Below are positions 9,517-19,152 of a stretch of 64,000 nucleotides of DNA, piece after piece. Location of the stretch: positions 1,836,501 to 1,900,500 of the forward strand of contig CP030158.1 in assembly GCA_003285105.1 (NCBI GenBank), given 5' to 3'. The notes below the pieces were generated by a model. That model was not told the DNA's origin and did no database searches. It was given only the letters and a program-made list of their open reading frames with translations. Origin of the DNA: Roseithermus sacchariphilus (GTDB taxonomy: Bacteria > Bacteroidota > Rhodothermia > Rhodothermales > MEBIC09517). A program made the position numbers and the translations under genes. How positions within the stretch are numbered: position 1 is the first letter of the stretch; each line of letters begins with the position of its first letter.

Positions 9517-10680
9517 CTAGCGCGGCAGCGGCTCGGTGCCCCTGCTGAGAATGTCCATATACGCGGCGTACAGATAAATGCGGCCGCGCTCCTGCCCCGT
9601 CACCTCACGCACGATCCCGAGTTCTTCCATGCGCTCCAGGGCCGAGGCGATGGTCGGCCACGTCAGGTCCACCTGGTTGGCCGCATCACGGATGGAAAGG
9701 AGCGGGTAACGCTGGAGGACTTCGTGGACGCGGAGCACCGACCCTGCGGCCCGGCCGGTTCTGGCTTCGATCAGTCTTCGATCCCGATCGAAAAGTGCCA
9801 GGATGTCGCGCGCGGTGTCCACGGCCTGTTTCGAGGTGGCCTGCACGCCCTCCAGGAAAAAGCGCAGCCACGCCATCCAGGCACCGTCTGTCCGTATCCG
9901 TTGGAGGAGGCCATAGTACTCCTCGCGGTGGGTCTTGAAATAGAGGCTGAGGTACAGGATGGGGTTGGTGAGTACGCCCTCGGCGCACAAGAGAAACGTA
10001 ATCAGAAGGCGGCCCATACGTCCGTTGCCGTCCAGGAAAGGGTGGATCGTCTCGAACTGGGCATGGACCAGGGCCGCCTTGAGCAGCGACGGAAGGGTGG
10101 TGTCATGAAGGAAGGCTTCGAGTTCATACAGGCAGCCGGAGAGACGATCCGGCGGGGGCGGCACAAACTGTGCGTTGCCGGGCCGCGTCCCGCCGATCCA
10201 GTTCTGCGACGTGCGAAACTGGCCGGGCTGCTTGTCGGCGCCTCGCCCCCCGGCAAGGAGCTGGGCGTGGATCTCGCGGATCAGACGGAGCGACAGAGGA
10301 AAGCCGCCCCGGAGTCGCTGGAGGCCGTAATCCATGGCCCGGACGTAGTTCGACACCTCACGGACGTCATCGAGCGGGACGCCCGGTGCTTCGTCCCGCT
10401 CGAAGAGGAGCAGGTCGGAGAGCGACGATTGCGTACCCTCGATCTGAGACGAGAGGAGGGCCTCTTTTCGGACGTAAAGGTAGATGAACAGGTCTGTAGC
10501 CGGCAGGATGGTGGTGATGCCGTCGAGCCGCCCCAGGGCACGGTTGGCTTTCTCCATGAGGTGGTAGTCTCCCGCGCTGAAATCGAGATCAGGGGGCAGC
10601 GGGTCGGGCACGAAGGCGTGTACGTCCTCCCCCGCCGTCGTGCTCGTGACGTAGCGGCCACTCGGGGTACGCTTGTCCAT
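9517..10680 (-). CDS. Fic family protein (class II, Fic/DOC with N-terminal inhibitory helix)
   Basis: Protein of 387 residues from the ATG at 10680; a GTG at 10731 would add 17 residues. Fic enzymes usually transfer AMP from ATP onto hydroxyl side chains of target proteins. The complete core motif HPFLDGNGRMGR is at residues 213-224 with catalytic His213. Near the N-terminus, residues 77-82 (SSQIEG) fit the (S/T)xxxE(G/N) inhibitory-helix motif, with Glu81 the predicted auto-inhibitory residue, so this is a self-inhibited class II Fic. The C-terminus looks like a winged-helix DNA-binding domain (SIRDAANQVDLTWPTIASAL). It is divergent from the restriction operon, and AT-rich DNA lies between them. 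Confidence 0.85.
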   Translation of the reverse strand: MDKRTPSGRYVTSTTAGEDVHAFVPDPLPPDLDFSAGDYHLMEKANRALGRLDGITTILPATDLFIYLYVRKEALLSSQIEGTQSSLSDLLLFERDEAPGVPLDDVREVSNYVRAMDYGLQRLRGGFPLSLRLIREIHAQLLAGGRGADKQPGQFRTSQNWIGGTRPGNAQFVPPPPDRLSGCLYELEAFLHDTTLPSLLKAALVHAQFETIHPFLDGNGRMGRLLITFLLCAEGVLTNPILYLSLYFKTHREEYYGLLQRIRTDGAWMAWLRFFLEGVQATSKQAVDTARDILALFDRDRRLIEARTGRAAGSVLRVHEVLQRYPLLSIRDAANQVDLTWPTIASALERMEELGIVREVTGQERGRIYLYAAYMDILSRGTEPLPR

Positions 10681-10803
10681 CAGGCTATTCAAACTTCTTT
10701 GATCGGGGTTCCACTTGTTAAAAGATAGCACCTATTTTTTTGATAAGCAGCCCGTTCCGAAAGGCAATTAATATATTTTTTCCAGCAGTAGGAACACTAC
10801 TGC

Positions 10804-10834
10804 TTGGTTGACGTGGCGCACTATCGTATATTCA
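10804..10834 (+). promoter_or_regulatory. Putative Bacteroidota-type promoter of the restriction-modification operon
   Basis: TTG at 10804-10806 is separated by 20 nt from TATATTC at 10827-10833. This fits the -33 TTG / -7 TAnnTTTG arrangement used by the primary sigma factor of Bacteroidota-like bacteria. The element ends 25 nt before the ATG at 10859. The same TTG-N20-TATTTTT geometry occurs before rpmE in this window. Inferred by eye only. Confidence 0.35.
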
Positions 10835-10858
10835 ATCCCCCATACGACGACCTCCCAC

Positions 10859-11476
10859 ATGCCACGGCTAAAGGACATCTGCACCATTTCGTCGGGCTAC
10901 TCCTTCCGAGGACGCATAGCCGACAACGAGGACGGCCCCTACCGGGTGGTTCAACTCAGCCACGTAGACTGGGAAGCGGAACGCATCGACTGGGAGGGGC
11001 TGCCGCGTGTGGGCGGCATCGAGCCGGGTACACACCACCTGCTGCGCCCCGGCGACATCCTCTTCGCCGCAAAAGGCAGCCCCCACCGGGCACTCTGCCT
11101 CAACGAAGGAGAAGGAGAAGATGCCGTGGCGGCCTCGACCTTCTTCGTTCTGCGCGTGCAACGGGATGACGTGCTGCCGGCCTTCATCGCCTGGTTTCTG
11201 AATACGGAGCCGGCTCAGGCCCACCTCCGGGGGTGTAGTCGCGGCACCAGCATCCGCATCGTCTCGAAGTCCTGCCTCGGTGCGCTCCCGGTGCCGCTTC
11301 CATTCCTGGAGCGCCAGCGCCGAATCGTGCAGGCCGTACGGCTGGCCCGGCAGGAGCGTGCGCTCACCGGCCAGTTGCTCGCACACAGGGCGCGCCTGCT
11401 GGAGGCCGCCTGCCTGCGAGCGGCCTCACCACGCCATGAAACGACCAACCCGCGGGATTCCCATTACACCCGATAG
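10859..11476 (+). CDS. Type I restriction specificity (HsdS)-like protein with a single target-recognition domain
   Basis: A 205-residue protein, about half a normal HsdS. It starts with a TRD-like segment (LKDICTISSGYSFRG, then a PGDILFAAKG motif near residue 80) and ends with the S-subunit conserved block LGALPVPLPFLERQRRIVQA followed by a helix (RLARQERALTGQLLAHRARLLEAA) like the HsdS central coiled coil. The ATG at 10859 was preferred to a TTG at 10808. It lies 4 nt before hsdM, in the same operon as a full two-TRD HsdS. It could dimerise as a half-subunit to form an alternative specificity, be a remnant of an S gene, or regulate DNA binding. Confidence 0.7.
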   Translation: MPRLKDICTISSGYSFRGRIADNEDGPYRVVQLSHVDWEAERIDWEGLPRVGGIEPGTHHLLRPGDILFAAKGSPHRALCLNEGEGEDAVAASTFFVLRVQRDDVLPAFIAWFLNTEPAQAHLRGCSRGTSIRIVSKSCLGALPVPLPFLERQRRIVQAVRLARQERALTGQLLAHRARLLEAACLRAASPRHETTNPRDSHYTR

Positions 11477-11480
11477 CCCC

Positions 11481-13013
11481 ATGCCACGACCCACGCAACA
11501 GCAGATCAACAACGCCCTCTGGCGGGCCTGTGACACCTTCCGGGGGACGATTGACCCGGCCCAGTACAAGGACTACGTGCTGGTGACGCTCTTCTGGAAG
11601 TACCTCTCCGACGTCCACCGCAAGCACGAGGCGGAGCTGCGCCAGAAGTATGGCGACAACCCGGAACTCATCCGCCGCAAGCTGGCCCGCGACCGCTTCG
11701 TCCTGCCCGAAGGCGCCTCCTTCTACGATGTCAAGCGCAACCACTACCACGACGCAGACCTGGGCGACCACATCAACAAGGCCCTCACGGCCATCGAGGA
11801 CGCCAACAAGCAGAAGCTCGACGGCGTCTTCCGCGACGTGGACTTCAACAGCGAGGCCAACCTCGGCGACACGAAGGAACGCAACCGCCGCCTGCGTCAC
11901 CTCCTCGACGACTTCGACGACCCGGCGCTGGACTTCACGCCCTTCGTGGAGGCGAGCGAGACGGGGCGCGAGGACGTGATCGGCAACGGCTATCAGTTCC
12001 TCATCAAGAAGTTCGCCTCGGACTCGGGCAAGAAGGCCGGCGACTTTTACACGCCGGAAGAGGTCTCCATGCTCATCGCCCGGCTCGTGGCGCCCCGCGC
12101 CGGCGACCGGATCTACGACCCCGCCTGCGGCTCGGGCTCGCTGCTCATCACCGTGGCCGACGAGGTCCGCGACGACGAGGGCAACCGCTCCCGCGACTTC
12201 GCCATCTACGGGCAGGAGCTCAACGCCTCGACGTGGGCGCTGGCCAAGATGAACATGTTCGTCCACGGCATCGACGGGGCCTCGATCCTCCGCGGCGACA
12301 CCATCACCAACCCCCGGCACCGCGAGGGCGACGCCCTCCTCAAGGCGGACGTGGTGGTGGCCAACCCGCCCTTCAGCCTGAAGAAGTGGGGCTACGAGGA
12401 AGCCGCTACCGACCGCTTCGGGCGGTTCAAACGGCCCGTGCTTCCCCCGAAGTCGAAGGGCGACTATGCCTTTATCCTGCACATGCTGCACTCCGCGAAG
12501 CAGGACGTGGGGCGCGTGGGCGTGGTCGTCCCCCACGGCGTGCTCTTCCGCGGGGGCGCCGAGGGCAAGATCCGCGAGCAGCTCATCCGCGACAACCTGC
12601 TCGACGCCGTCATCGGGCTGCCCGCCGGCCTCTTCTACGGGACCGGCATCCCTGCGGCCATCCTCGTCTTCAAGATGCGCCGCCCCACCACCGACGTCCT
12701 CTTCATCGACGCCAGCCGCGAGTACGACGACTCGGATACGCAGAAACGCCTGCGGGCGCAGGACATCGAGAAGATCGTGCAGACGTACCGCGCCTACGAG
12801 AGCGTGGACAAGTACGCCTACCGCGCCTCCTTCGAGGAGATCGAGGAGAACGACTTCAACCTCAACATCCCCCGGTACGTGGACACCTTCGAGGAGGAGG
12901 AGCCGGTGGACCTGGCGGCCCTGGCCGAGGAGATCCGCGCCATCGAGACGCGGCTGGCGGCCACGCGCCAGGAACTCGACGGCTACCTCCGCGAACTCGG
13001 CCTCCCCGTGTAG
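11481..13013 (+). CDS. hsdM: Type I restriction-modification system methyltransferase subunit
   Basis: N6-adenine methyltransferase subunit of 510 residues. It has an N-terminal HsdM helical domain (residues 1-150), the SAM-binding motif I DPACGSGS at 213-220, and the adenine-methylase catalytic motif NPPF at 295-298. The ATG at 11481 gives the standard start MPRPTQQQINNALW. With HsdS it would methylate host DNA; with HsdR as well it would restrict foreign DNA. It is preceded at 4 nt by the half-S gene and followed by a 37-nt perfect palindrome and hsdS. An hsdM-hsdS-hsdR set in one orientation is normal for type I systems. Confidence 0.95.
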   Translation: MPRPTQQQINNALWRACDTFRGTIDPAQYKDYVLVTLFWKYLSDVHRKHEAELRQKYGDNPELIRRKLARDRFVLPEGASFYDVKRNHYHDADLGDHINKALTAIEDANKQKLDGVFRDVDFNSEANLGDTKERNRRLRHLLDDFDDPALDFTPFVEASETGREDVIGNGYQFLIKKFASDSGKKAGDFYTPEEVSMLIARLVAPRAGDRIYDPACGSGSLLITVADEVRDDEGNRSRDFAIYGQELNASTWALAKMNMFVHGIDGASILRGDTITNPRHREGDALLKADVVVANPPFSLKKWGYEEAATDRFGRFKRPVLPPKSKGDYAFILHMLHSAKQDVGRVGVVVPHGVLFRGGAEGKIREQLIRDNLLDAVIGLPAGLFYGTGIPAAILVFKMRRPTTDVLFIDASREYDDSDTQKRLRAQDIEKIVQTYRAYESVDKYAYRASFEEIEENDFNLNIPRYVDTFEEEEPVDLAALAEEIRAIETRLAATRQELDGYLRELGLPV

Positions 13014-13019
13014 TTACGA

Positions 13020-13056
13020 CCAGACCTGCCAGGTCTCCGAGACCTGGCAGGTCTGG
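13020..13056. repeat. REP-like perfect palindrome between hsdM and hsdS
   Basis: A perfect inverted repeat of two 17-nt arms (left arm CCAGACCTGCCAGGTCT) around the 3-nt loop CCG, starting 7 nt after the hsdM stop. Each arm is itself made of AGACCTG/CAGGTCT half-sites. It is closely related to the palindromes inside the 3' end of hsdS and just upstream of the RAYT transposase gene, so it is probably one of that transposase's elements. It could also act as an RNA hairpin between hsdM and hsdS. Confidence 0.8.
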
Positions 13057-13074
13057 GGTCAACCGCCACCCCCC

Positions 13075-14667
13075 ATGCGCATGAACGACGACACGAAACA
13101 ACCCACCCTGTTCGACCCGCCCCCCGCCAACGGGACGCCCGAGGCCTCGCATAGTTTGGCTAAATCCGTCTTTGAGAAATGGGCACTCAAAGATTGTGGA
13201 CGATGGCTTTCCGGCGGAACACCTACCAGAAATAATCCCGCATATTGGGGAGGTGATATTCCATGGATTAGTGCCAAAAGTTTGAAGCATTTTTACATCT
13301 ATGATTCCAATGAATATGTGACCGAGGCCGGTGCGATGAATGGAACACGCCTCGTTCCGCCCGGCACAATCCTCTTTGTGGTGCGGGGCATGAGTCTCGC
13401 AAATGAGTTTCGCATCGGCATAGCCCAACGATCAGTTACATTTAATCAAGACCTTAAAGCGCTAATTGCCAATGAACACTTTGACCCTCTGTTTTTAGCT
13501 TATATGCTGAAGGCCAAGGAAAAATACATCATGAACCTGGCAGATGCCTCGTCTCACGGAACACTGCGCCTTCAGACAGAACTATTGGAGCAACTCCCCA
13601 TCCCCCTCCCCCCCCTTCCCGAGCAGCGCAAGATCGCCCGCATCCTCGGCGCGTGGGACCGGGCGCTGTCCGACCTCGACGCGCTGCTGGCGGCCAAGCG
13701 CCGGCGCAAGCAGGGTCTGGCGCAGCGCCTGCTCACGGGCCGCGTGCGCCTGCCGGGGTTTGATGAGCCGTGGCGGGAGGTAAAAATTGGACAACTATTG
13801 AAGCCTGTGAAGCGGCCTGTAGACTGGGATGATAAAAGATTGTATCGACTTGTCAGTCTCAGACGTGGTGGTGAAGGTCTCTTTTGGCGCTCACCGCTAT
13901 ACGGCCATCAGATCAGTACAAAAACATTGATGGTTACTCGCACGGGAGACTTCCTTATCTCACGGATGCAGGTAGTGCACGGTGCCACTGGCCTTACCAC
14001 ACCAGAATTCGACGGTGCCCATGTTTCAAACTCATATCTGATTCTAGTGCCCAGAAAAGAGAACATTATTGATACAGCTTTTTTTGCAGAGTTGTCTAAG
14101 CAGCCGTTTATGCGGCACTTGGCTTATCTGTCGAGCTACGGTGTGCATATTGAGAAGATGACATTTAATCCGCGCCTATACTTCAACAGCAAGATCTCGA
14201 TTCCTCCAACGGTTGAAGAACAAAGGGAAATCAAGAAGGTGCTCGATGCGGCCGATGCCGAGATCGCCGCGCTCGAAGCCTGGCGTGCGGCGCTCGCCCG
14301 GCAGAAGAAGGGCCTCATGCAGCGGCTGCTCACCGGGGAGATCCGCGTCAGGCTGGAGGAGGGGGATAACCCAGACCTGTCAGGTCTTCGAGACCTGAAC
14401 AGGTCTACGACGACGCCCACGACGTCCACCACACCCCCGACGCCCCACCGCGACAACCCAGACCTGTCAGGTCTTGGAGACCTGAACAGGTCTACGACGA
14501 CGCCCACGACGTCCACCACACCCCCGACGCCCCACCGCGACAACCCAGACCTGTCAGGTCTTGGAGACCTGAACAGGTCTACGACGACGCCCATAACGCC
14601 CCGCCGCGACAACCCTGCCGGCGACAACCCGGACCTGAACAGGTCCGGGGGAGGCGATACGTCATGA
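13075..14667 (+). CDS. hsdS: Type I restriction-modification specificity subunit with repeat-expanded C-terminus
   Basis: DNA-recognition subunit of about 530 residues (start ATG 13075 or 13081). Two TRDs (about residues 30-170 and 230-385) are each followed by a conserved block and helix: LPIPLPPLPEQRKIARILGA then a helix to RLLTGRVRLPGF, and IPPTVEEQREIKKVLDAADA then a helix to RLLTGEIRVRLE. The TRD DNA is visibly richer in A+T than the conserved segments, as expected for swapped specificity modules. After the normal end at RVRLEEG the frame continues for about 100 residues through three 87-nt tandem repeats (29 residues each, with DNPDLSGL and TTTPTTSTTPPTPHR) that contain the REP-like palindromes. 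The stop overlaps the RAYT start as ATGA. Confidence 0.92.
   Translation: MRMNDDTKQPTLFDPPPANGTPEASHSLAKSVFEKWALKDCGRWLSGGTPTRNNPAYWGGDIPWISAKSLKHFYIYDSNEYVTEAGAMNGTRLVPPGTILFVVRGMSLANEFRIGIAQRSVTFNQDLKALIANEHFDPLFLAYMLKAKEKYIMNLADASSHGTLRLQTELLEQLPIPLPPLPEQRKIARILGAWDRALSDLDALLAAKRRRKQGLAQRLLTGRVRLPGFDEPWREVKIGQLLKPVKRPVDWDDKRLYRLVSLRRGGEGLFWRSPLYGHQISTKTLMVTRTGDFLISRMQVVHGATGLTTPEFDGAHVSNSYLILVPRKENIIDTAFFAELSKQPFMRHLAYLSSYGVHIEKMTFNPRLYFNSKISIPPTVEEQREIKKVLDAADAEIAALEAWRAALARQKKGLMQRLLTGEIRVRLEEGDNPDLSGLRDLNRSTTTPTTSTTPPTPHRDNPDLSGLGDLNRSTTTPTTSTTPPTPHRDNPDLSGLGDLNRSTTTPITPRRDNPAGDNPDLNRSGGGDTS
14371..14648. repeat. Tandem 87-nt repeats carrying REP-like palindromes inside hsdS
   Basis: Near-palindromes beginning CCAGACCTGTCAGGTCT occur at 14371, 14458 and 14545, exactly 87 nt apart, each followed by an ACGACGACGCCC-type spacer. 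A shorter perfect palindrome (CCGGACCTG, AA, CAGGTCCGG) follows at 14629-14648, just before the RAYT start codon at 14664. The 87-nt period equals 29 codons, so the expansion keeps the hsdS frame. The elements match the 13020 palindrome in their AGACCTG/CAGGTCT core. Confidence 0.85.
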
Positions 14668-15260
14668 CCACCTATCCATCCCTCGAAGCCGGGCGATACT
14701 ACCACGTCTATAACCGGGGCAACAACCGCGAGGACCTCTTCCGCGAGCCGCGCAACTACGACTTCTTCCTCGAACGCTACGCCCGGCACGTCGCGCCGGT
14801 GGTAGACACCTTTGCCTACTGCCTGCTCCGCAACCATTTCCACCTGCTCATCCGCGTCAGGCCCGAGGCAGACTGGCCCGACGCCCGAGGTCCTGCCCGC
14901 CGGTTCGCCAACCTGTTCAGCAGCTACGCCAAGGCGATCAACAACGCCTACGGGCGCACCGGCAGCCTCTTCCAGAAACGCTTTGGCCGGATCGAAGTGA
15001 CGTCCGAGCGCTACCTCGCCCACCTCGTCTGCTACATCCACCACAATCCCCAGCGCCACGGCTTCGTGGACGACTTCCGGACGTATCCCTATTCGTCCTA
15101 CCGGGCCCTGCTCGCCGCCGGGCGGCCCACCCGCCTTCGGCGCGACGAGGTTCTCGCATGGTTCGGCGGGGCGGACGGCTTCCGCGCGGCCCACGCCGCC
15201 GGCGACGCCGCATCCCGTGCGGCCCCCCTGATTGACCACGACTTCGAACACCAGGTCTGA
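14664..15260 (+). CDS. REP-associated tyrosine transposase (RAYT, IS200-like Y1 family)
   Basis: Single-strand DNA transposase of 198 residues. The N-terminus YYHVYNRGNNRE is typical of RAYTs. The HUH metal-binding motif is present as His58-Phe-His60 in LLRNHFHLLIRV, and the likely catalytic tyrosine is Tyr88 in FSSYAKAINNAYGRTGSLFQ. A YIHHNPQRHG segment follows, as in the family. RAYTs recognise and may mobilise REP palindromes, and REP-like palindromes lie directly upstream within hsdS and at 13020. Its ATG overlaps the hsdS stop (ATGA), and hsdR starts 8 nt after its stop. It is therefore embedded in the restriction operon and probably translated with it. All visible catalytic residues are intact. 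Confidence 0.85.
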   Translation: MTTYPSLEAGRYYHVYNRGNNREDLFREPRNYDFFLERYARHVAPVVDTFAYCLLRNHFHLLIRVRPEADWPDARGPARRFANLFSSYAKAINNAYGRTGSLFQKRFGRIEVTSERYLAHLVCYIHHNPQRHGFVDDFRTYPYSSYRALLAAGRPTRLRRDEVLAWFGGADGFRAAHAAGDAASRAAPLIDHDFEHQV

Positions 15261-15268
15261 CACACGCC

Positions 15269-18200
15269 ATGGCCGTCCCCTCCTATGCCGAATGGCCCGA
15301 CTCGCAGGGCCCCGCCCTCCGGCTCCTCCAGAAGCTCGGGTGGACCGTCCTCTCGCCGGAGGACGCCCTCCGGATGCGGGGCGGCTCCACGAGCGAGGTG
15401 CTGCTCCGTTCCGTCCTCGAAACCCAGCTCCGGCGGCTCAACCCCATCGCGTACCGGGGGCGCCTCCACGAGCTTTCCGAGGGCAACGCCCACGAGGCCG
15501 CCGAGAAGCTCCGCCGCCTGCCCGAGGCCAGCCTCATCCAGGCCAACGAAAAGGCCTACGACCTCCTCATGCTGGGCACGAGCCTGGAGCAGGAGATCGA
15601 AGGCGACCGCAAGAGCCCGCAGATCCACTACGTAGACTGGCACAGGCCCGAGCGCAACCAGTTCCACGTCGTGCCCGAGTTCGAGGTGCAGCGGGCCGAC
15701 GGCAGCCACTACCGCCCCGACCTCGTCCTCTTCGTCAACGGCATCCCCTTCGCCGTCGTCGAGTGCAAGCGGCGCGACAAGAACGCCTCCGTCGAGGCCG
15801 GCATCCACCAGATGCTCCGCAACCAGCGGCCCGGCGGCATCCCGCGCCTGTTCCACACCGTGCAGCTCGTACTCTCGGTCCAGCCCAACGCCGTCCGGTA
15901 CGCCACCGTGGGGACCGAGGAGAAGTTCTGGTCCGTCTGGAAGGAGCCCGAGGCCGAGGCCGCCGTCCGCCCGCTCATCCAGGACCGGGGGATGGGCACG
16001 TACGAGCCGTGCGAGCAGGACCGGGCGCTGTGGTCACTCCTTCGCCCGAGCCGCCTCCTGGAGCTGACCCGGCTGTTCGTCGTCTTCGATGCCGGCGTCA
16101 AAAAGATTGCCCGCTACCAGCAGTACTTCACCGTGAAGGCCACGCTGGAGCGCGTACGCCGCTTCGACGAGCACGGCCGGCGCCGGGGCGGCGTGATCTG
16201 GCACACCCAGGGCAGCGGCAAGAGCCTCACCATGGTCATGATCGCCAAAGCCCTCGCCCTCGCCGACGACATCCGGCACCCCCGCGTCGTGCTCGTCACC
16301 GACCGCAAGAGCCTCGACAAACAGATCGAGCGGACGTTCCGCCATTGCGGCAAGGAGGTCAAGCGGGCCAGAACGGGCACCGAACTGGCCGAGTTGCTCC
16401 AGGATACGCGCAACGAGGTCGTCACCACGCTCATCAACAAGTTCAAGACCGTCGCCGAACGGAAGCTCACGGTGGTCGATAGCGAGAACGTGTTCGTCCT
16501 CGTCGACGAGAGCCACCGCACGAACTACGGCACGCTCCATGCCCTGATGCGGAAGGTGCTGCCGAGGGCGTGCTACCTCGGCTTCACCGGCACCCCGCTC
16601 ATGAAACAGGAGAAGAGCACGGCCCGGAAGTTCGGCGGTCTCATCGAGCCGGTTTACACCATCGAGCAGGCCGTGGCGGACCGGGCCGTCGTCCCCCTGC
16701 TCTACGAGGGCCGTCACGCCCGGCAGATCGTCTATGAGAAGCCGCTCGACCGCGCCTTCGAGCGTGTGGCCGAGCCGCTCTCGGACGAGCAGACGCGCGA
16801 TCTCAAGAAGAAGGCGACAGCCCGGCAGCGGCTTGCCCAGACGAAGCAGACGCTGGAGGAGGTGGTCTACGACGTCCTAGAGCACTACGTGCAGCACTGG
16901 CAGGGCACCGGCTTCAAGGCCATGCTCGTCGTGCCGAGCCGGGCCGCCGCCGTCCGCGCCCAGGAAATCGCCGAGCAGGACGGCCGGGTGCGGACCGCCG
17001 TGGTCATCTCCGGCCCCGACCAGCGTGAGGAGGACGAAGACGAAGAGGCCCCGATGGCGCAGGTGCAGGCGTGGTGGCAGCGCACCGTCGTGGAACGCTT
17101 CGGAGGCGACGAGGAGGCCTACGACGAGTACGTCATCGAGCGGTTCAAGGAGTTTTCCGAAGACGACCCCGGCATCGAACTCCTCATCGTCGTCAGCAAG
17201 CTCATCACGGGCTTCGATGCGCCGCGGGCCACCGTGCTCTACGTCTACAAGCAGATGAAAGAGCACACCCTCCTCCAGGCCATCGCCCGCGTCAACCGCC
17301 TCCACGAAGGCAAGGACTTCGGGTACGTCCTCGACTACTGGGGCATCCTTGGCGAGCTCGATGACGCGCTCACCAGCTACAGCGCCCTCGCCGGCTACGA
17401 CCCCGACGACGTGGCCGGAAGCATCCAGAGCGTGCGCGACGAGGTCCGCAAGCTCGGCCAGCGCCATAGCGACCTGTGGGACGTGTTCGCGGGCGTCGAG
17501 AACAGAGAGGACATCGAGCAGATGGAACGCCACCTCGCCGACGAAGAGCGCCGCCACACGTTCTACGAGCGCCTGACGGCCTATGCCCGCACGCTCCAGC
17601 TCGCCCTCTCGACGGAGTATTACCACACGACGGTAGACGAGGCCCAGCAGAAGCGGTACCTCCGAGACCTCAAGTTCTTCACGTCCCTCCGCCGCTCCGT
17701 CCGGCTCCGCTACGCCGAGGCCGTCGACTTCGGCGAGTACGAGCGCCGCGTGCAGAAACTCCTGGACACCCACGTCGCCGTCGACGAGGTGGAACGGGTC
17801 GTGAAGCCCGTCAACGTGTTCGACCGCGAAGCGTTCATGGTAGAGGTGGAACGGGTCACGGGCAGCATAGCCTCAAAGGCTGATGCCATCGCACACCGCA
17901 CCAGGCGTGTGCTCACCGAGCGCATGGACGAGGACCCCGTCCTCTTCAAGAAGCTCTCGGAACTCATCGAGGAGGCCATCGAGGCCTTTCGCCGCCAGCG
18001 GCTGAGTGAGGTGGAGTACCTCCAGCGTGTGCAGAAGATCGAAGCCGAGCTGGAATCGGGGAAGATTCAGGGGATCCCCTCGGTGCTCCATGGCCATCCC
18101 GAGGCGCGGGCCTTCTACGGCGTACTCACGGAAGTGCTGGGCGCCTCGCCCGAACACGACCCCGATCGGCTGGCCGAGGCGGGATTAGCCATAGACCGGC

Positions 18201-18391
18201 TCATCGAAGCCCGGAAGAAAGTCGACTGGGAGCGCGACCCTGACGTGGAGAAGCAGATGCGAGATGACGTGGAGGATTTCCTTCTCCTGGAGTCCGGCCT
18301 GATCGACATGAACACCCCGGGCTGGCAGGACGCTGTCGACCGCATCCTCGACGAAGCCATCCGCATCGCACGCAGCCACCGGAACGGATGA
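15269..18391 (+). CDS. hsdR: Type I restriction-modification system endonuclease/translocase subunit
   Basis: Restriction and motor subunit of 1040 residues, a typical length. The N-terminal PD-(D/E)xK nuclease is visible as D151...E165-C-K167 (RPDLVLFVNG...VVECKRRD). The SF2 translocase follows with Walker A GSGKS at 315-319 and the DEAD-box variant DESH at 413-416, then a helicase C-terminal part with LITGFDAPRATVLYV and a QAIARVNR motif VI-like segment. It starts 8 nt after the RAYT gene and overlaps the downstream metallopeptidase gene by ATGA, so the operon appears to continue. Confidence 0.95.
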   Translation: MAVPSYAEWPDSQGPALRLLQKLGWTVLSPEDALRMRGGSTSEVLLRSVLETQLRRLNPIAYRGRLHELSEGNAHEAAEKLRRLPEASLIQANEKAYDLLMLGTSLEQEIEGDRKSPQIHYVDWHRPERNQFHVVPEFEVQRADGSHYRPDLVLFVNGIPFAVVECKRRDKNASVEAGIHQMLRNQRPGGIPRLFHTVQLVLSVQPNAVRYATVGTEEKFWSVWKEPEAEAAVRPLIQDRGMGTYEPCEQDRALWSLLRPSRLLELTRLFVVFDAGVKKIARYQQYFTVKATLERVRRFDEHGRRRGGVIWHTQGSGKSLTMVMIAKALALADDIRHPRVVLVTDRKSLDKQIERTFRHCGKEVKRARTGTELAELLQDTRNEVVTTLINKFKTVAERKLTVVDSENVFVLVDESHRTNYGTLHALMRKVLPRACYLGFTGTPLMKQEKSTARKFGGLIEPVYTIEQAVADRAVVPLLYEGRHARQIVYEKPLDRAFERVAEPLSDEQTRDLKKKATARQRLAQTKQTLEEVVYDVLEHYVQHWQGTGFKAMLVVPSRAAAVRAQEIAEQDGRVRTAVVISGPDQREEDEDEEAPMAQVQAWWQRTVVERFGGDEEAYDEYVIERFKEFSEDDPGIELLIVVSKLITGFDAPRATVLYVYKQMKEHTLLQAIARVNRLHEGKDFGYVLDYWGILGELDDALTSYSALAGYDPDDVAGSIQSVRDEVRKLGQRHSDLWDVFAGVENREDIEQMERHLADEERRHTFYERLTAYARTLQLALSTEYYHTTVDEAQQKRYLRDLKFFTSLRRSVRLRYAEAVDFGEYERRVQKLLDTHVAVDEVERVVKPVNVFDREAFMVEVERVTGSIASKADAIAHRTRRVLTERMDEDPVLFKKLSELIEEAIEAFRRQRLSEVEYLQRVQKIEAELESGKIQGIPSVLHGHPEARAFYGVLTEVLGASPEHDPDRLAEAGLAIDRLIEARKKVDWERDPDVEKQMRDDVEDFLLLESGLIDMNTPGWQDAVDRILDEAIRIARSHRNG

Positions 18392-19152
18392 TCGACGAGA
18401 TGGCAGAACGAGAAATGCCTGGTCCGGCGTACACCGATGCCGTGCAGTACGGGCGGCACACTATCGTCTTTGACGTCATTCGTACGGCGCGAGAGACGCT
18501 GGGTATCCACGTCTACCCATCGGGCCGTGTGGAAGTGCGAGTGCCGCTGGCAGCGGAGGCCGATGAGATTCGCGCCCGCGTCCAACGTCGCGCCCGATGG
18601 GTGCTACGCCACCAGCGCCGATTTGCCGAACTGGTGCAGGCCCAACCCCGGAAGGACTACGTGAACGGCGAGACGCACCGCTACCTCGGCCGCCAGTATC
18701 GCCTCCGGGTAAGGCCGCTGGATGCAGGAGGCCTAAACGGGCCGGAGGAAGGCGTCAAGCTGGTCGGCCGATTCTTTGAGGTGTATACCACCCGGCCCGA
18801 TCACCCGGAGCACACCCGGACGCTCCTGGAGCGCTGGTACCGCCAGAAAGCCGACCATCATCTGAGGCAACGGTTTGCATGGGGATGTGCCCAGATGGCC
18901 CGGTACGGCATCGAACCGCCCCAACTGGCGATCCGCCGCATGGAACGCCGGTGGGGAAGCTGCACGCCGAGCGGTCGCATCCTCCTGAACCCCCGGCTCA
19001 TCCTCGCCCCCATGGCCTGCATCGACTACGTGGTGGTGCACGAACTCTGCCACCTCAAGCATCCGTACCACAGCCGCGCCTTCTACGACCTTCTCGGCCG
19101 CGTACTGCCGGACTGGGAGCAGCGTAAGACCCGCCTGGAACGAGTGCAGTAA
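18388..19152 (+). CDS. YgjP-like (M48-type) zinc metallopeptidase
   Basis: Protein of 254 residues of the YgjP/DUF45 family. The zinc-peptidase motif HELCH is at 218-222 with a further His at 228 (HPYHSRAFY), preceded by the family signature RWGSCTPSGRILLNPRL at about 188-204. An N-terminal beta-rich region (VEVRVPLAAEADEIRARVQRRARWV) is also typical. Its ATG overlaps the hsdR stop by 4 nt, showing translational coupling. Genes of this family are often found at the end of type I restriction operons, but their role there is not settled. Cytoplasmic; no signal peptide. Confidence 0.85.
   Translation: MIDEMAEREMPGPAYTDAVQYGRHTIVFDVIRTARETLGIHVYPSGRVEVRVPLAAEADEIRARVQRRARWVLRHQRRFAELVQAQPRKDYVNGETHRYLGRQYRLRVRPLDAGGLNGPEEGVKLVGRFFEVYTTRPDHPEHTRTLLERWYRQKADHHLRQRFAWGCAQMARYGIEPPQLAIRRMERRWGSCTPSGRILLNPRLILAPMACIDYVVVHELCHLKHPYHSRAFYDLLGRVLPDWEQRKTRLERVQ

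Follow-up and report, generated by a model that had tools for sequence, protein, structure and literature searches.

RAYTs, the REPtrons that they form with their palindromes, palindromes within genes and untagged repeats beside RAYT-like genes are all already known (PMC6006769, PMC3733652). The locus described here resembles the RAYT/TnpAREP REPtrons of E. coli (PDB 4er8; PMC6006769) in its HUH and Y1 catalytic core, its single copy and its own flanking palindromes able to disperse, but its elements carry no GT[AG]G foot and, of the residues with which E. coli TnpAREP reads its guide (W94, Q95, E100, H101 and R104; PMC6006769), W94, E100, H101 and R104 are mostly replaced. TnpA-Y1 subclass 2.4 (Bertels group 4) shares with it a Bacteroidetes distribution, an NH[IFV]H motif that the NHFH found here fits, a variable segment after the HUH motif and in-frame palindromes in the transposase gene (here in relatives only), insertions that were reported to be unique to that subclass (Quentin et al., PMC6006769). 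However, the window protein has YIHHNP and not YIxNNP, the double foot GT[AG]G...C[TC]AC is absent, and the W94 and R104 of subclass 2.4 are not conserved. Subclass 2.6 (Bertels group 5) is likewise mostly from Bacteroidetes and has in common with the present RAYTs atypical untagged flanking hairpins, an unconserved guide-reading region, an SS motif and YIH[QN]NP, which many relatives have where the window protein has YIHHNP, but its HUH motif is NH[LIV]H where ours is NHFH. Since each subclass has at least one defining motif that the window protein lacks, we filed it under neither.

Two further groups come close. The TIRYT genes and TIRtrons (Di Nocera 2013, PMC3733652) also combine RAYT-like genes with flanking inverted repeats that lack GTAG, some of them double palindromic, but they were reported from other species and are likened here by description only. 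The Rickettsia palindromic elements and intragenic REPs, so far as they are summarised in PMC3733652, are short palindromes that lie in frame in protein genes and are translated; unlike those in that summary, the elements described here have a likely mobilising enzyme encoded next to them, and their hosts are HsdS and, in one Chloroflexota locus (L032), HsdM. The literature searched yielded no prior report of a RAYT inside a type I operon or of HsdS or HsdM carrying its palindromes, and none in which the GTAG tag and its reading residues had been lost jointly.

A RAYT gene within a type I restriction operon

We analysed a 64,000-nt stretch of the 4.8-Mb genome of Roseithermus sacchariphilus (hereafter the window). 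It holds a complete type I restriction operon, consisting of a half-hsdS, hsdM, hsdS, hsdR and ygjP, with one RAYT-type HUH transposase lying downstream of hsdS and ahead of hsdR (Table 1); hsdM, hsdS and hsdR, by which a type I restriction-modification system is recognised, were all found in profile searches. The hsdS stop and the RAYT start overlap exactly, as ATGA (14664-14667), and exactly 8 nt separate its stop from the hsdR start. These coordinates bear out the arrangement given in the initial annotation, and with it the view that the transposase is positioned for co-expression with the restriction genes. The ATGA overlap suggests that RAYT translation may be coupled to that of hsdS, and a potential ribosome-binding stretch, GGGGGAGG, lies just ahead of the RAYT start codon.

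Table 1. Genes and palindromic elements of the type I restriction operon (window coordinates).
Feature	Position	Strand	Remarks
Half-size HsdS-like gene, one recognition domain, 5' of hsdM	10820..11476	+	PADLOC Specificity_I E 8.5e-19
hsdM, type I DNA methyltransferase	11367..13013	+	TIGR00497 301 bits, above cut-off
Perfect double palindrome, 33 bp (15+3+15 nt), between hsdM stop and hsdS start	13022..13054	+	Fold -22.1 kcal/mol, z -8.2
hsdS, type I specificity subunit	13075..14667	+	PF01420 77.8 bits; start may be 13081
87-bp (29-codon) unit, three tandem copies, each with an imperfect double palindrome (14373, 14460, 14547)	14365..14625	+	Translated as DNPDLSGLGDLNRSTTTPTTSTTPPTPHR
Single palindrome CCGGACCTGAACAGGTCCGG at hsdS end, slightly different core, at 14632	14630..14649	+	
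RAYT / TnpA-Y1 HUH transposase (H58, H60, Y124)	14664..15260	+	NF047646, PDB 4er8 TnpArep
hsdR, type I restriction subunit, HindI-like C-terminus	15269..18391	+	TIGR00348 480 bits; PF11867
YgjP-like metallopeptidase, start overlapping hsdR stop (ATGA)	18388..19152	+	PF01863 208 bits

Three further features of the surroundings were observed. A half-size HsdS-like gene (~200 aa, one recognition domain) lies just 5' of hsdM both in the window and in two related type I operons (L131, 11007-11609; L133, 10185-10790), and is possibly a conserved auxiliary half-S subunit, with or without a RAYT in the operon. Proteins that by eye resemble the YgjP-like metallopeptidase are also encoded after hsdR in two distant type I operons from the same taxonomic order (L134, 905-1627; L135, 9676-10398). 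Directly upstream of the restriction operon, a divergent Fic/DOC-family gene with a winged-helix C-terminus occupies 9517-10731 (-).

The transposase matched NF047646, the NCBI RAYT family, with 60.8 bits (E 1.3e-16; curated cut-off 80) and Pfam Y1_Tnp with 19.7 bits (E 9.5e-4; curated cut-off 23), both significant but short of the cut-off, and a profile comparison matched it to E. coli TnpAREP (PDB 4er8) with E 2.9e-9. Its HUH motif is NHFH, with HFH at residues 58-60; among 155 RAYTs aligned with 4er8, H60 never varies and H58 is missing from a single sequence. The HFH position originally proposed is thereby confirmed and the RAYT identity supported (4er8, and an HUH motif with a single Tyr), and the proposed catalytic residue, Tyr88, has to be replaced by Tyr124. 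Tyr88, kept in most of the 155 RAYTs, corresponds to Phe84 of TnpAREP and is therefore not the nucleophile, whereas Tyr124 (in YIHHNP) is invariant (155/155) and aligns with TnpAREP Y115. Only one RAYT of this kind is encoded in the 4.8-Mb genome, which is not the picture of an amplified insertion sequence, and a plasmid search for relatives returned distant RAYTs only, none covering 80% of the query.

Across the RAYT family surveyed, a GT[AG]G foot was present on 1/476 element ends. At the positions of the guide-reading residues, W94 is replaced by Phe in 151/155 RAYTs, Q95 is Gln or Glu, E100 is mostly Arg, H101 mostly Lys or Ile, and R104 mostly Asp, Glu or Thr; the window protein has F103 (for W94), Q104 (for Q95) and T113 (for R104). 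The GTAG tag and most of the residues that read it have been lost together in this family.

Palindromes in the operon and beside related RAYTs

Five palindromes with AGACCTG-type cores had been listed in the operon, with none obvious elsewhere in the window. All five are present and, within the window, confined to the operon, although they are not of one kind: one is a perfect double palindrome, three are imperfect doubles within an 87-bp array, and one is a single palindrome with a different core. The motif AGACCTGNCAGGTCT with up to 2 mismatches occurred 5 times in the window against 0.26 expected, a count that 0/100 shuffles reached, and no match was found elsewhere in the window outside the operon. 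As single strands the palindromes fold far better than shuffles, with z values of -8.2 (the perfect one, Table 1) and about -5. The perfect double palindrome begins 8 nt past the hsdM stop, and its stem extends to 13020-13056. In the array, copy 2 is 98% like copy 1, and copy 3 diverges at its end. An element in the window has either CCAG and CTGG as its flanks or a CTAC end on a single side. Pattern searches over the 4.8-Mb genome found 7 copies of the 13-bp half core GACCTGNCAGGTC, 5 of them in the operon, and the 24-bp double form in four places, all inside the operon. The two half-core copies outside it (L136, L137) are lone half-sites within coding genes, and we rejected them as real elements. 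The double-palindrome pattern disperses to up to 15 copies in other genomes and is confined to the operon in this one; being unspread here, the unit may be young or inactive.

Read in frame, the 87-bp array and the single palindrome make up the last ~100 residues of HsdS, past a normal C-terminus at about 14352-14370. The HsdS proteins of related operons (L131, L132, L133) end soon past a conserved LxTGExRV motif, so the tail of the window HsdS was added by the palindromes. This tail, of low complexity and rich in Thr and Pro, is probably an inert disordered extension, and its best reading is that of a tolerated by-product of a REPtron lodged in the restriction operon. Calculated from their coordinates, the three elements of the HsdS tail and the hsdM element of L032 begin in the phase (codon position 3) shared by most elements inside RAYT genes. 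We rejected the open frame through the palindromes as a sign of selection, another + frame being almost fully open as well.

We surveyed hairpins (arms of at least 11 bp) in 162 RAYT neighbourhoods, 80 from GTDB genomes and 82 from the phylum. Hairpins were found beside the RAYT in 124/162 loci, and their density was tenfold higher within 300 bp of the RAYT (1.62/kb) than beyond 1.5 kb (0.155/kb). The modal length was exactly 33 nt (134/295 hairpins; typically 15+3+15), with the arm consensus ARACCTGMCAGGTTT. Arm differences rose with RAYT divergence (Mantel r 0.46; 0/2000 permutations; 97 loci). In 32/162 relatives a hairpin lies inside the RAYT gene itself; the majority of these have a length of exactly 33 nt, begin at codon position 3 and encode peptides of the type KDLTGFENLSGL, (K/P)DLTGFxNLSGL; the window RAYT gene has no palindrome inserted in frame. 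A relaxed double-palindrome pattern was present in 28/296 genomes, while a reversed control pattern had 0 matches in the 296. A RAYT is encoded in 22/28 of these genomes versus 138/296 overall (Fisher P 0.0003, which is optimistic because related species share ancestry). RAYT presence is thus favoured where the palindromes occur, the opposite of palindromes abounding in genomes that lack the enzyme. Given their architecture, their closeness to the RAYT and the way such elements co-vary with the RAYT sequence among relatives, the window palindromes are very probably the RAYT's own cognate elements, the two forming a REPtron.

Larger arrangements of such elements were seen in two places. In a Thiomargarita MAG (L082, 9477-13585), ~20 near-identical 33-nt double palindromes form arrays on both sides of a RAYT and an hsdR at a regular 39/45/58-nt spacing. 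On one contig (G198:C1, 1076120-1077742 and 2135209-2135962), 33-nt palindromes recur at about 354-365-nt spacing, which suggests that they are part of a larger repeated unit.

Origin of the arrangement

In genome G085, from the same taxonomic order, a related operon (L131; HsdR 62% identical) has the matching gene order but a DUF7380/DUF4209 gene in the place of the RAYT; it has no RAYT, and its HsdS ends normally. Other related operons have other genes or none at this position. In related operons, then, the hsdS-hsdR junction serves as a slot whose cargo varies, and the suggestion of an insertion hotspot in the initial annotation was therefore nearer the mark than its alternative, with the addition that in relatives the slot holds other cargo genes. 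Across the RAYT loci, the upstream gene was co-directional in 128/158, a raw figure taken without a genome baseline. These observations are in keeping with insertion at tolerated junctions within operons, with no need for a restriction function. A general preference of RAYTs for defence islands was rejected, as near and far neighbours did not clearly differ in an approximate PADLOC comparison (defence matches in about 7/108 versus about 5/110 among the matches listed). Genes that by eye resemble a CD-NTase/CBASS cluster adjoin the related operon of G085 (L131, 11918-15062).

Our preferred reading, to which we give a probability of roughly 0.78, is that a REPtron, a RAYT with the palindromes it would act on, lodged in the accessory slot that separates hsdS from hsdR in a type I operon. 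By analogy with TnpAREP, the RAYT would bind the hairpin in single-stranded DNA, as on the lagging strand, and would cut it via Tyr124 with the help of H58, H60 and a metal, the copies being rejoined nearby. One palindrome copy would have landed between hsdM and hsdS and others at the hsdS stop, where the 87-bp unit would then have been amplified in tandem. Palindromes could survive inside genes because they are typically 33 nt (11 codons) long and open in one frame, and translational coupling probably leads to synthesis of the transposase alongside HsdS and HsdR.

As a variant of this origin, the operon may have moved in as one block with the RAYT already in place, the REPtron being a passenger of a mobile restriction operon. 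Type I operons are often transferred between lineages, and the RAYTs closest to ours come from Chloroflexota and scattered phyla. However, third codon positions are alike in their high GC content in RAYT (0.87), hsdM (0.93) and hsdR (0.91), so that no recent import of one part is visible, and a related operon from the same taxonomic order lacks a RAYT; we regard the block transfer as conceivable but doubtful.

Type I genes adjoin the RAYT in 4/162 loci, always co-directionally. These comprise a Chloroflexota locus (L032) with the order hsdR-RAYT-hsdM-hsdS and eight 33/34-nt elements, one inside the RAYT gene and one inside hsdM; the Thiomargarita locus (L082), with hsdM-Uma2-RAYT-hsdR; a Bacteroidota locus (L151), with hsdR-RAYT-two genes-hsdS-RhuM-like-hsdM; and a second Bacteroidota locus (L087), where the RAYT lies beside a type I remnant. 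A RAYT in a restriction operon is thus not peculiar to one strain, although the gene orders differ. At L087 (8388-9764), an AbiEii-like gene (by eye) and a broken hsdM were seen directly 5' of the RAYT, which is intact in an apparently decayed type I locus. A gene for a type IIG-like enzyme lies directly 5' of the RAYT in a KSB1 locus (L078). Against a background of some two hsdM per genome, a by-eye estimate for one phylum, hsdM was within 2.1 kb of the RAYT in 3 cases where 0.4-0.7 were expected (P 0.01-0.03) and hsdR directly adjacent in 3 where about 0.3 were expected (P 0.003-0.005); these P values rest on small numbers tested post hoc after the pattern had been noticed. Counting the window, six members are restriction-associated, and their distribution over the RAYT tree takes six changes, which is not below the number for shuffled labels; at least three are required by well-supported branches. 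The HsdR C-terminus is of EcoEI type in L032, L151 and L087 and HindI-like in the window. Because the members are scattered on the RAYT tree and differ in gene order and HsdR type, these sequences indicate that captures of RAYTs by type I operons are rare and independent.

The several-fold excess of RAYTs beside type I genes also bears on the proposal that the restriction system recruited the RAYT, with the palindromes flanking hsdS promoting inversion, excision or recombination that switches or diversifies HsdS, or with the RAYT acting as a defence nuclease. Near-identical palindromes do bracket hsdS, their inverted arms matching at 93%. Yet silent hsdS cassettes are absent, the half-hsdS also occurs in related operons without a RAYT (L131, L133), and the palindromes sit at gene ends, outside the HsdS recognition domains, which leaves the diversification of hsdS raised in the initial annotation unsupported. 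Moreover, most RAYTs of the family are not beside restriction-modification genes, the rough near/far comparison above shows no general defence enrichment, and the scattered tree positions, varying gene order and varying HsdR type argue against a conserved RAYT-restriction partnership. We consider recruitment unlikely. Equally improbable, in our judgement, is the broader scheme of a distinct RAYT class that coevolves with untagged 33-bp double palindromes, reads them without a GTAG guide, and is repeatedly captured by type I operons that it would then serve, either by hsdS rearrangement or by palindrome-encoded peptides on HsdS or HsdM that change assembly or specificity. That the palindromes have nothing to do with the RAYT and are hairpins of the operon, serving for instance in mRNA stabilisation or attenuation, is the least probable reading: the 13022 hairpin, between hsdM and hsdS, lies where a hairpin in the mRNA could set the subunit ratio, but the same 33-bp architecture accompanies RAYTs across phyla with tenfold enrichment and co-variation with RAYT sequence, and G085, whose related operon lacks a RAYT, has no double-palindrome match anywhere in its genome.

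On the preferred reading, that of a REPtron lodged in the operon, the locus brings an enzyme and its likely substrates together within 2.3 kb, with double palindromes nowhere else in the genome, and this compactness makes RAYT-palindrome recognition without a GTAG guide cleanly testable. The parallel loss of the GTAG tag and most of its reader residues, with co-variation retained, amounts to a natural experiment on RAYT hairpin recognition. Together, our results suggest that a domesticated transposase can be captured repeatedly by restriction operons, writing palindromes into their proteins.
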